DNA of 64,000 nt from Mumia xiangluensis. Its GTDB lineage: Bacteria > Actinomycetota > Actinomycetes > Propionibacteriales > Nocardioidaceae. The translations under genes and the position numbers were made by a program. Shown piece after piece: positions 12,149 to 64,000 of the stretch; position 1 is the stretch's first letter; the number at the start of each line of letters is the position of its first letter. The notes below the pieces were generated by a model. It made no database searches and was not told the DNA's origin. It saw only the letters and a program-made list of their open reading frames with translations. The stretch spans positions 186,001 to 250,000 of the forward strand of contig NZ_WJYO01000006.1 of the NCBI RefSeq assembly GCF_010994095.1, given 5' to 3'.

Positions 12149-12976
12149 CTACATCGTCGCGGTGATCGCGCCCGTCCCGAGCAGGATCAGCACCAGCGTG
12201 CCCAGGCCGATCCGGTAGATCACGAACGGCGTGTACGAGTGCTTGCTGACGTACTGGAGGAGCCAGTGGATCACCGAGATGCCGACCACGAACGACACGA
12301 CGGTCGCGAGGATCGTCGGACCCACGCCGTACGCGTTCTCACCGCCGGGGATCTCCTTCAGCTCGAACAGGCCCGCACCCACGACCGCCGGGATCGCGAG
12401 CAGGAACGCGTAGCGCGTCGCCGCGGCACGGTCGTACCCGAGCGCCCGTCCCATGCTGATCGTGGCGCCGGACCGCGAGACGCCGGGGATCAGCGCAGCC
12501 GCCTGCGCGAGACCGAACAGGACCGCGTGCTTCGGAGTGAGGTCCTCGATCTGGCGTTCCTGCCGGCCGAGACGGTCGCAGATGCCGAGCACGATGCCCA
12601 TCACGATGAGCATCGTCGCGATGATCCACAGGTTGCGGAAGTCGTTCTCGATGACGTCCTTCAGCGCGATGCCGAGCACGACGATCGGGAGCGAGCCCAC
12701 GATCACGAACCAGCCCATCCGCCACTCGAGCGACTCGCGGGCGTCTCGGTTCACGAGACCGCGCAGCCACCCCGACGCGATGTTCCAGATGTCGCGCCAG
12801 AAGTACAGGACGACGGCGACCTCGGTGCCGATCTGGATGACCGCGGTGAACGCTGCACCCGGGTCCTCCCAGCCGAAGAACTTCGGGAAGATCGCGAGGT
12901 GACCCGAGGAGGAGATCGGCAGGAACTCAGTCAGTCCCTGGATGAGGCCGAGGACCAGCGCTTGGAGCAGATCCAT
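12149..12976 (-). CDS. uppP: undecaprenyl-diphosphatase
   Basis: UppP/BacA dephosphorylates undecaprenyl diphosphate to recycle the lipid carrier of cell-wall synthesis; overexpression gives bacitracin resistance. 275 residues with about eight membrane segments. The two signature motifs are present: QGLTEFLPISSSGH near residues 14-27 (with the catalytic Glu and Ser) and PGVSRSGATIS near 170 with the conserved Arg. The start ATG overlaps the LLM stop (TGATG), so the two are translationally coupled. A uppP gene close to mshC and a histidine phosphatase is conserved in mycobacteria. Confidence 0.97.
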   Translation of the reverse strand: MDLLQALVLGLIQGLTEFLPISSSGHLAIFPKFFGWEDPGAAFTAVIQIGTEVAVVLYFWRDIWNIASGWLRGLVNRDARESLEWRMGWFVIVGSLPIVVLGIALKDVIENDFRNLWIIATMLIVMGIVLGICDRLGRQERQIEDLTPKHAVLFGLAQAAALIPGVSRSGATISMGRALGYDRAAATRYAFLLAIPAVVGAGLFELKEIPGGENAYGVGPTILATVVSFVVGISVIHWLLQYVSKHSYTPFVIYRIGLGTLVLILLGTGAITATM

Positions 12977-60785: not shown

Positions 60786-61400
60786 TCAGTCGGCGACGAC
60801 GACGGACTCGATCACGACCGGCTCGAGCGGCTTGTCGGTCGCGTCGGTCGGCACTGCCGAGATGGCGTCCACGACCGCCTTGCTCTCGTCGTCGGCCACG
60901 ACACCGAAGATCGTGTGGAGCCCGTCGAGGTGCGGCGTGGGCACCGTCGTGATGAAGAACTGCGAGCCGTTCGTGTCGGGTCCGGAGTTGGCCATCGCGA
61001 GCTGGTACGGCTCGTCGAAGGTGAGGGCGGTGTCGATCTCGTCCTCGAACTCGTAGCCCGGGCCGCCCATGCCCGTGCCGAGGGGGTCGCCGCCCTGGAT
61101 CATGAAGCCAGAGATGACCCGGTGGAACGTCGTGCCGTCGTACAGCGGGTCGCTCGACTTCTCGCCCGTCTCAGGGTCGGTCCACTCCTTGTCGCCGGTC
61201 GCGAGACCGACGAAGTTGGCGACTGTCTCTGGAGCCTCGTCGGCGTAGAGATCGACCGTGATGTCGCCCATGGTCGTCTTGAGCGTGGCCTGCTGAGCGG
61301 TCACCCCCGCGCCGTCGCTGTCGCCGTTGCCGGAGTCACCTCCGCACGCGGTCGCGACGAACAGGAGGGCGACGGCCGAGACGAGCATGCGCAGGCGCAC
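60786..61400 (-). CDS. cyclophilin-type peptidyl-prolyl isomerase lipoprotein
   Basis: 204 residues. A lipobox (FVATAC) gives an acylated Cys near residue 19, so it is anchored on the outer face. The cyclophilin domain has [15 protein letters not shown], the catalytic Arg in that segment, and [16 protein letters not shown]. Helps fold exported proteins. GTG 61400 is chosen because AAAGGAA lies seven bases upstream; ATG 61388 is in frame. Confidence 0.93.
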
Positions 61401-61459
61401 GGGAGTTCCTTTCAGTGGATCCGACGGACGGAACCGTACCGGGAGGGGGCGGCCTCGCC

Positions 61460-64000
61460 TCAGGCGACACCGCGCCGGTAGCCCGGGAGCAGCTCCTCCA
61501 CGAGTGCGTGAGTGCGCGAGGTTGCTCCGAGCGGCGAGCCGTGGGCGGCGATCGCGGCGTACATCTGGTCCGCCACCACGGTCGCGTCTGCGCGTCCGCT
61601 GAAGCGGACCGCCAGACGCATCGCGGCACACCACAGCGTCTCGCTGGCGGGAAGCGCGGCGAGTCCCGCGAGCAGCGCGTCCCTCGCTCCGTTGGCGTCG
61701 TCGACGGCCGTGCACTCGGTGGCCAGCGCTGCGGACGTCATCTCGACCGCGAGGGCGACGTCCTCCTCGACGCCGAGGTGCGCCAGCCACGCGTAGCGCC
61801 CCTGCGGCACACCGGTGAAGGCCGTGCCGCGGACCAGCGACATCGCTGTGCGGAGCGCGGGCACCCGGGCGCGGCTGGTGACGGCGCGGTTGAGCGCTGC
61901 GCGGAACCGATCCCAGTCACAGGCGACCGCGCTGCGGCGCAGAGCCCACACGCCCGCGTCGGACGTGAGGACGGGCTCGCCGGCGCCGGTCGTGCCGACC
62001 CACTCGGCGACCGCACTCATCGTGGCGTCGCGCGTCTCAGGGTCGACGCCGCGCGGCCAGATCGCAGCCGTGAGGACGTTGACGTGCACGCCGTCCGGGT
62101 GGACCGCGAGGTACGCGACGATCTCGGTGAACAGGTCGCGGCGTGCCTCGTCGATCGGACCAGGAGCCCGCACGACCACCGGGCCGAGCAGGTCGACCGA
62201 GACCACCACGGGCTCGTCGTCCCCCGTCGCGAGGACCGCCTCCTCGACGACCAGCGCCTCGGCGAGCTCCTCGATCGACATCGACGCGGGCTCGGTCGGC
62301 AGCGTGAACAGGTCTGCGAGGCCGCGGCAGGCCTCGGGCGAGAGCTCTTGCGCGAGGACGTCGATCGCGTGCGGGGCGCTGACGAGACGCCCGTCCTCGG
62401 TCGCAGTGAGCCTCGCGGCGGCGTCCGGGCAGTCGCCGACCACGACGACAGCGACGGCGACCATCGGGTCGGCCGCCCACGCGTGGAGCCGGGCGAGCGC
62501 CGCCGGGTCCGGGACGCCGGAGCAGACGACGAGCTGGAGCCGCACCCGACCTGGGTCGTCGCTCACCTGGCGGAGCTGCGGGACCGAGTCGACCGCGTAC
62601 GCCCGGCAGGCTGCCCGGTGGTCGTGGGCGACGTTGTCGAGGGCGTCGAGCGCACGCCCGATGTCGCTGACGGCCTCGACGTTGCCGATGGCCGAGACGT
62701 CGTCGGCGAACCCGACCAACGTCACCACCGGGCTGTCTGCCCACGGGTGCGTCGCGGTCTCGACGGCGAGGCTCATCGCGACGCCACGGGCGACGACCGG
62801 ATCGCCGCCGAGCGACACGACGCCGTCGTACGACTCGAGGTCCAGGAGCAGCACGGCACCGTCGTCGCGGGTGCCGGCGCACACCAGTGCGGGAAGCGGC
62901 GAGAGCGCGCCGGACATCGTCGCCGCCTCACGCGGGAGCATCCAGGTCCTGGCGTCGCTCGTGCTCGCCCAGCCGTCGGGCAATGCGGTCGACGGCTCCG
63001 ACCGGAACGCAGCGACCAGCCCGTCCGACGACAGGGCCGCGCGGGCCAGCGGTGGGAGGGCCGTGGCGTGAAGACCGCGTACGGCGCCGGCGAGCCACTC
63101 GGCATCCGCGGGGGCTGCCTCGTCCCGCAGACCCGCCTCGACGCGTGCCGCGACGTCGATCTGCGACGAGGACTTCGCCGACGAGCCCTTGGGGCGGTCG
63201 GGGCCACCGCCGGGATTCGACGCGCGGCGACGCCGCAGGCCGACCAGCGCACCGGCCAGCGCGAGGCCGCCGGCGACACCGAAGACCGGCGCCCACTCGC
63301 CGATGGACGACGAGGAGGCCGCACGGGCCTCGACCACGCCACCCACACCGCCGCCGACCTCGGCCCCGCCGCTCTCTCCCCCGCTGACTGCCGCGTCATC
63401 AGCAGCGCTGCTCCCCGCGGCGCCAGGGGTGCCGGTGTTCGAGCTGGGGGAAGCCAGGTCGTCGCGAGCCGCCTCGACGACCTTGAGGCCCGGGCCGCGG
63501 GCATCGTTTGGCATCTTCATGACCCAGCCCGGGTGGATCAGGTCGGGGTTGCTGAGGGTGCGGCCGTCCGGCTGGACGACGTTGCGGTTCATCGCATAGA
63601 TCTCCTTGTAGCGGAACCCGTCTCCCAGGTACCGCTCGGCGATGTCCCACAGCGTGTCGTAGTTGCGGTTGTTCGGCGGCTTCACGTCGTAGTACGTCGT
63701 GAGGTCTCCGCCGCGCTGCTCGGCGCGCGTCGCCCGCGAGAGCTCACTCACGGCCGGGCGCTCGGCATCGGCGACCTTGGTGGCCTGCTGCGTGGTCTGG
63801 GCTTCGACGGAACGCTCGGCACTGCCGACGACCCGCTCGATGCCCACCGGGCGGTGCTCGGGTGCGGGCACGGCGGCGGTTGCTGCAGGCGCCGCGATCG
63901 ACGCCGTCCCCACCAGCAGGACGATGGTCGTCACGAGCTTGCGGGCGAGCGCCTGGGTGCCGATGCCACCGCCGGGAATCCGCGGCGCGAGACCGCGAGC
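61460..64000 (-). CDS. LysM / transmembrane / winged-helix (BTAD-type) protein, N-terminus cut by window edge
   Basis: At least 846 residues; the frame is open to the right edge. Numbers count from the internal GTG at 63934. Order: hydrophobic N-terminal segment, a LysM domain (about 79-142: [23 protein letters not shown], ending PGWVMKMP) that should bind peptidoglycan, an acidic Gly/Ser linker, one membrane helix ([17 protein letters not shown]) followed by RRRRAS, a long central domain, and at about 580 onward a winged-helix of the SARP/BTAD type (VDLLGPVVV, then [21 protein letters not shown]) with the helical BTAD-like tail. Basic residues after the helix place the C-terminal part in the cytosol. 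A transmembrane regulator is inferred. Confidence 0.85.

Follow-up and report, generated by a model that had tools for sequence, protein, structure and literature searches.

Gene, domain layout and operon

The gene under study lies at the end of the window, which is the whole stretch of 64,000 nucleotides of Mumia xiangluensis DNA that was analyzed (contig NZ_WJYO01000006.1, positions 186,001 to 250,000). Neighboring DNA (L003, G000:C6:246000-264000) was used to recover the whole gene past the window edge. The complete gene (G000:C6:247460-250297, minus strand) encodes 945 amino acids from an ATG start at L003 4298. From the N- to the C-terminus, the protein contains three transmembrane (TM) helices, a LysM domain, a TM helix followed by RRRR, an FtsK/EccC-like domain, a SARP-type winged helix, and a BTAD domain (Table 1). 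Hydropathy places the first two TM segments at residues 27-45 and 66-84, beyond the window edge, the third at 116-134, and the fourth as given in the table.

Table 1 Features of the gene under study and its operon. Positions are those of the window unless marked L003.
Feature	Position	Strand	Remark
Other Tad/Flp operon genes	L003 4336-12640	minus	beyond the window edge; gene under study last
Gene under study	61460..64000	minus	final 846 of 945 codons; ORF open at window edge
TM3	63878..63952	minus	residues about 116-140; hydropathy and AF2 helix 116-140 in M. quercus orthologue
LysM domain	63503..63697	minus	residues 201-265; outside (predicted); most conserved domain
TM4	63236..63292	minus	residues 336-354; hydropathy
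RRRR	63224..63235	minus	residues 355-358; inner side predicted
FtsK/TcpA/EccC-like fold	62297..63163	minus	residues about 379-667; cytoplasmic, without Walker A
SARP-type winged helix	61910..62203	minus	residues 699-796; structure match and hhalign
Recognition helix	61994..62029	minus	residues 757-768
BTAD (TPR-like) domain	61463..61909	minus	residues 797-945

An earlier note on this DNA, made from the window alone, had proposed the same order of domains from the first LysM-flanking helix onward, with LysM outside and the winged helix inside the cell. The order was borne out by Pfam scans, AF2 fold matches, hhalign, and hydropathy, and the recovered 945-aa protein adds two more TM helices. The topology agrees with the prediction made here from hydropathy and charge. 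Charge favors LysM outside and the C-terminus inside, chiefly through the RRRR after TM4 (5 Lys/Arg vs 1 acidic residue in a 15-residue stretch); the signal is less clear at the other segments.

The LysM domain was matched at residues 214-263 with 20.5 bits in hmmscan, against a cut-off of 20.9, and with 25.4 bits, above the cut-off, as a genome-wide match. The BTAD domain reached 18.8 bits in hmmscan, against a Pfam cut-off of 22.1, and 22.3 bits, barely above it, as a genome match. For the M. quercus orthologue, AF2 modeled the N-terminal region with the four helices and a LysM unit of beta-alpha-alpha-beta form (pLDDT 55, pTM 0.28), and the LysM blocks reach a pLDDT of 70-90 despite the low overall confidence. 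The best Foldseek matches of the LysM model were weak: GINKO1 (7vcm; E 0.012, prob 1.00) and the phiCD508 needle protein (E 0.06), both of which we take to contain LysM.

At E<=1, the curated models on the protein were LysM, BTAD, and Ycf9 in Pfam and two LysM-type models in NCBIfam, and no NCBIfam model was above its own cut-off. Neither scan, to E 1, gave a match to a named Tad protein (TadA-G, RcpA-C/CpaA-F) or a FimV row; NCBIfam contains FimV models. A PDB sequence search with the single protein gave no matches, and a PDB search with the 11-row profile gave two weak rows alone, neither of them SARP nor FtsK. A phage origin was considered and rejected, as the ten best of the 81 matching phage records span 5-10% of the query, at LysM.

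The operon is ordered CpaB-TadZ-TadA-TadB-TadC-Flp-TadE-TadE-TadG, followed by two ORFs and then the gene under study, all on the same strand. Pfam identified SAF/CpaB, the TadA ATPase (T2SSE, 1.7e-32), two T2SSF proteins as TadB and TadC, and TadG (PF13400). The ORF at the TadZ position is MinD-like by eye, without a Pfam match. The Flp prepilin between TadC and TadE contains EVGASAVEWAIISAIVV and is followed by a first TadE-like ORF and then TadE, before TadG. The 1.7 kb between TadG and the gene hold a lipoprotein-like 241-aa ORF (LAGC box; L003 5391-6113) and a 350-aa ORF, both without a Pfam match. The one A24 prepilin peptidase match in the genome is on a different contig. No match to secretin (Pfam PF00263) was found in the present genome, and 6 of the 14 control genomes, Caulobacter among them, were positive.

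Upstream of cpaB, at L003 about 12640-12760 (minus), a block of about 100 bases is near-identical between two Mumia genomes, and two others retain part of it; it is perhaps the promoter or leader of the tad operon. A type VII (ESX-like) locus adjoins the operon at L003 13133-18001, with MinD/CbiA-like, EccD/YukD, and divergent FtsK/EccC-type ATPase proteins. The central domain of the protein under study shares the EccC-like fold with this ATPase type. Directly downstream of the gene, at window positions 60786-61409 on the minus strand, a cyclophilin-type peptidyl-prolyl isomerase is encoded.

Fold of the cytoplasmic part and its recognition helix

The AF2 model of the cytoplasmic part (11 sequences, 574 aa) has two units, with a pLDDT of 76 and a pTM of 0.53. 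The central domain resembles the motor folds of FtsK, TcpA, and EccC/EssC (VIA Z up to 15.7; Foldseek E 5.5e-7 to 4.3e-4). The Walker A motif GxxxxGK[ST] is absent anywhere in 52/52 aligned rows, the protein itself included, and GK[ST] occurs in the matching strand region of the central domain in 0/52. Because no row has a Walker A, the central domain is termed here a pseudo-ATPase, the loss of nucleotide binding being only predicted.

The OmpR-type winged helix and the BTAD fold of SARP activators are present in the protein, as found by Foldseek/VIA and hhalign. Residues about 691-940 of the AF2 model resemble AfsR (8hvr; Foldseek E 3.5e-8, Z 13.9) and EmbR (2fez; Z 13.6). The protein family was compared by hhalign with an alignment of 28 SARPs from this and related genomes plus AfsR, which gave 99.5% at E 4.4e-22. 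The 28 came from 31 SARP control loci, with L100 and L138 under threshold (divergent) and L137 too short. The SARP/BTAD-type C-terminal fold in the earlier note is confirmed by these matches.

According to PMC10936776, the recognition helix of AfsR contacts phosphates through R87, R94, K95, and S91 and bases through R92 and T88. In the alignment, AfsR R87/R92/R94/K95 correspond to D757/A762/A764/E765 of the window protein, which has S at S91 and A at T88. At the four basic positions, the window protein has 0 basic residues, compared with a mean of 2.2 in the SARPs and 1.4 in the family. The net charge of the winged helix is -6 in the window protein, -3 in the family, and -1 as the SARP median (Mann-Whitney p 3e-5, for rows that are not independent).

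These substitutions (R87D, R92A, R94A, K95E) bear on the proposal of a cell-wall sensing regulator in the earlier note. As far as sequence can show, they match the case that the note itself named as refuting its proposal, a C-terminal domain lacking a DNA-binding surface. With the contacts reading D/A/A/E, the regulator role has little support for this protein. The gene also closes a Tad pilus operon and does not stand alone, and the operon leader lacks SARP-type repeats. In the 189-base stretch upstream of cpaB, scanned in one genome with simple base shuffles, no heptamer repeats at 11/22 nt stood above the shuffles (best 5 of 7, shuffle mean 5.3).

R94 is R in 29/29 aligned SARPs (28 controls and AfsR). 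The unaligned control L100 has P at this position by eye, so the invariance holds among the aligned controls alone. Within the family, R94 is kept in 34/52 rows and in 18/18 further rows, nine plasmid copies included, which gives 52/70; among the 18, the alignment of L140 is gapped at the recognition helix. The R94 state was placed on a quick tree of the 52 rows, built without the winged helix and rooted for drawing only. It takes 4 changes, and 500 shuffles gave a mean of 15 and none as low. R94 is lost in all 12 rows of the clade of the window protein (SH-aLRT 98) and in 16/20 rows of the next larger clade. Two scattered rows outside the branch, L087 and L089, are also without it. This pattern indicates that the loss belongs to the Mumia/Aeromicrobium branch together with L087 and L089, and not to the whole family.

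The same-genus genomes G002 and G003 carry a Kribbella-like type with R94 kept. Canonical-looking recognition helices (SRLRNWLG, SKLRTWLG, SRTRSWLA) occur in many relatives, plasmid copies included. Since R94 is kept in 52 of the 70 relatives, DNA binding elsewhere in the family is possible, and the count suggests that in the ancestor R94 served to bind DNA or else had a structural purpose.

Operon linkage, distribution and selective constraint

The loci were picked by similarity to the protein under study and not by Tad genes. In 54 of the 57 Actinomycetota loci having upstream DNA, both TadA and TadB precede the gene, and many actinobacteria share the operon. Three loci depart from this: L097 has TadG and a weak TadE alone, L149 shows no Tad gene over the preceding 11 kb, and L152 holds pieces of the gene and no Tad gene. 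Ten further loci, fetched via a match to the central-domain profile, gave TadA and TadB in 7 of the 9 testable; L145 has no CpaB and TadZ matches and L151 no separate TadC match, and both are within the 54. One duplicate locus, L036, was dropped, and L021, L095, and L147 were untestable, their contigs running out within the gene or at its edge.

TadA, TadB, and TadC are upstream on the same strand in 47/48 non-duplicate loci having upstream DNA. All of CpaB, TadZ, TadA, TadB, and TadC are on the strand of the gene in 45/50 non-duplicate loci. Of the remaining five loci, L021 and L095 sit on contigs that start within the gene, the slice of L034 stops short of CpaB, L091 gave no TadZ match, and L097 has none of the five proteins. 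The nearest Tad ORF lies <1.9 kb away from the gene, with L079 (6.5 kb) as the one exception. A crude motif scan found the Flp prepilin in 31/47 non-duplicate loci scanned; one more match, the 32nd, in L091, seems fortuitous.

Several loci differ in arrangement. Tandem copies of the gene stand behind one tad operon in L034 (2803-5922 and 8741-11452) and in L035 (9855-12743 and 15498-18197), with R94 lost in both copies of each. L019 and L020 have an additional TadA-profile match downstream of the gene. In L097, the ORF immediately upstream encodes a histidine-kinase-type ATPase domain, which was considered as a possible kinase partner. The relative at L149 11617-14964, with no Tad gene in the 11 kb upstream, has the canonical-looking recognition helix SALTKLRKILG and is a candidate free-standing regulator.

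In the sampled genomes, TadA was found at E<=1e-40 in 225/296. The protein under study was matched in 30/296, some by LysM only, and the central-domain profile in 25/296. Judged by these profile counts (225/296 against 30/296), Tad systems in general can do without the protein. In the phylum sample, the 13 best TadA places after its own, spread over 12 genomes, all fall in genomes that the protein under study matches as well. Tad operons including the gene are also carried by large actinobacterial plasmids: tblastn matched 211 of 72,556 plasmid records, 136 of them Streptomyces, the weakest rows being LysM alone. Nine annotated plasmid regions (L106-L109, L139-L143) were taken; four were among the best-scoring rows, and the other five came from a set of fourteen "spread" rows. 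The tad genes are upstream in 9/9, with TadA, TadB, and TadC confirmed by profile in each. In three plasmid regions (Micrococcus luteus and two Curtobacterium), a prepilin peptidase directly follows the gene.

Orthologues 77-86% identical are found in three of five same-genus genomes, and G002 and G003 have a 37% identical type. The dN/dS is <1 in every domain in three Mumia comparisons (0.00-0.62). By domain, it is 0.00-0.05 for LysM, 0.04-0.13 for BTAD, 0.08-0.19 for TM1-3, 0.16-0.24 for the pseudo-ATPase, and 0.11-0.27 for the winged helix. Compared with the three close orthologues from Mumia, identity is 96% in LysM, 87% in BTAD, 82% in TM1-3, 80% in the pseudo-ATPase, 78% in the winged helix, and 58% in the linkers. 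On this level of conservation, the gene is evidently more than a chance reading frame. The winged helix is 53% identical to the Aeromicrobium type (vs 51% for BTAD) and 46% to the Kribbella/Nocardioides type, where BTAD has 32% and the pseudo-ATPase 30%. The better conservation of the winged helix than of BTAD at greater distance indicates that the winged helix is under real constraint, for DNA binding or otherwise.

Proposed role and known systems

Diderm Tad machines cross the outer membrane via a secretin complex. On balance, we lean toward the protein being a peptidoglycan-anchored membrane hub of the actinobacterial (monoderm) Tad/type IVc pilus machine, one that more likely helps build or place the pilus than switches genes. 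LysM would hold the protein to peptidoglycan, and its TM helices, three N-terminal ones and TM4, would keep it in the membrane. Cytoplasmic proteins, most likely TadZ, TadA, and TadB/C, would dock on the pseudo-FtsK/EccC domain and on the winged-helix/BTAD(TPR) module of SARP origin. The pilus base would thereby be sited at the wall and braced against it. Such a hub would work like FimV/HubP and fill the job proposed for CpaD in the diderm Tad machine. It is favored because of the operon linkage, the co-occurrence of the protein with its 13 best TadA places, the strongest constraint falling on LysM, the lost contacts and negative charge of the winged helix, the missing Walker A, the FimV/HubP layout, and the precedent of CpaD together with the missing secretin here. 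Against it stand R94, kept in 52/70, the constrained winged helix, the copies apart from a full Tad operon (L149, L097, L152), the many Tad systems without the protein, and the absence of a FimV match in the Pfam and NCBIfam scans.

Some weight goes to the idea of the earlier note, a membrane-tethered SARP regulator, in which LysM and the TM part would sense the state of the wall or pilus and the winged helix would activate the tad operon or other genes. The AfsR/EmbR fold of the C-terminus, the canonical-looking recognition helix in many relatives, R94 in 18/18 further rows, and the 46% identity of the winged helix to the Kribbella type, above that of BTAD, all fit it, and the operon position would suit autoregulation. 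For the window protein it is nevertheless unlikely. None of the 4 basic contacts is left and two positions are acidic, R94 is lost in 16/20 rows of the wider clade and 12/12 of the inner, and the cpaB leader is without the 11/22-nt heptamer repeats (best 5 of 7, shuffles 5.3). A membrane protein held at the wall would also need to find its promoter at the membrane.

A division of two functions may be imagined, in which an ancestral pilus hub also bound DNA and the Mumia/Aeromicrobium branch retained the hub function alone. The 4 tree changes of R94 and its loss throughout the 12-row clade at an unchanged operon position agree with this, but R94 may be kept for folding and DNA binding by the other members is a prediction, and we hold it to be quite improbable. 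That LysM and the TM parts matter alone, as a passive wall anchor with the cytoplasmic domains as relics, is hardly credible. LysM is indeed the most conserved domain, but the cytoplasmic domains are under purifying selection in the Mumia copies (dN/dS 0.04-0.27) and are aligned in 52/52 rows. More tentatively than the membrane hub, we may picture an activator turned pilus part: a SARP joined to a dead FtsK/EccC-like ATPase, tethered to peptidoglycan and serving the Tad machine, also on plasmids. Some branches might still bind DNA and report the state of the pilus or wall to transcription, with Mumia/Aeromicrobium purely a hub.

The protein is a widely conserved, probably wall-binding candidate for siting or bracing monoderm Tad machines, with a fixed place in the operon. 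The system may be described as a Tad machine with a component of SARP origin that is probably tethered to peptidoglycan. The database name "BTAD domain-containing putative transcriptional regulator", used for one member, may mislead. The natural split in R94 offers a ready comparison on whether DNA binding matters.

A single earlier record of LysM and BTAD in the same Tad protein was found, as a row in a table. PAGK_2369, in the Tad locus of the Propionibacterium acnes plasmid pIMPLE-HL096PA1, is given the Pfam entry "LysM, BTAD" at E 3.1e-10 and is labeled TadB (PMC3666418, Table 2). It shares LysM, BTAD, and the Tad locus with the protein, as compared by table labels only, and no discussion of its function was found in the available part of that paper. 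LysM and BTAD near eCIS loci are given as separate domains in the excerpt of PMC8213781. The chromosomal tad clusters of Micrococcus luteus are the subject of PMC8467076, in whose accessible part no LysM-BTAD protein is named. Among the matches listed from the open-license PMC literature, there was no functional study of a LysM-BTAD Tad protein.

AfsR and EmbR share the winged helix and BTAD fold with the protein (Z 13.6-13.9; hhalign 99.5%). Unlike them, it is membrane-anchored, has a pseudo-ATPase before the winged helix, and has lost the recognition-helix contacts in its branch. The FtsK/TcpA/EccC (HerA-FtsK) ATPases share the fold of its central domain (Z up to 15.7), while Walker A is missing in the family (0/52).

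According to the excerpt of PMC13170226, the predicted task of CpaD in the Tad machine of Caulobacter is to tie the secretin to peptidoglycan. CpaD is thus, like the present protein, a proposed peptidoglycan anchor of a Tad machine. Unlike it, CpaD is an OmpA-like outer-membrane lipoprotein, without LysM and not in the cytoplasmic membrane. The anchoring in Caulobacter is attributed to this outer-membrane protein; a monoderm would need another solution, and the present protein could supply one. FimV/HubP has the layout LysM - TM - cytoplasm - TPR, with a TPR end thought to bind clients, and FimV serves type IV pili (excerpt of PMC12918733). The extracytoplasmic LysM, TM, and cytoplasmic TPR-type end are shared with the protein in its predicted topology. 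It differs from FimV/HubP, whose cytoplasmic part is acidic, in its extra TM helices, its pseudo-FtsK/EccC domain, its SARP winged helix, and its setting in a monoderm Tad operon.
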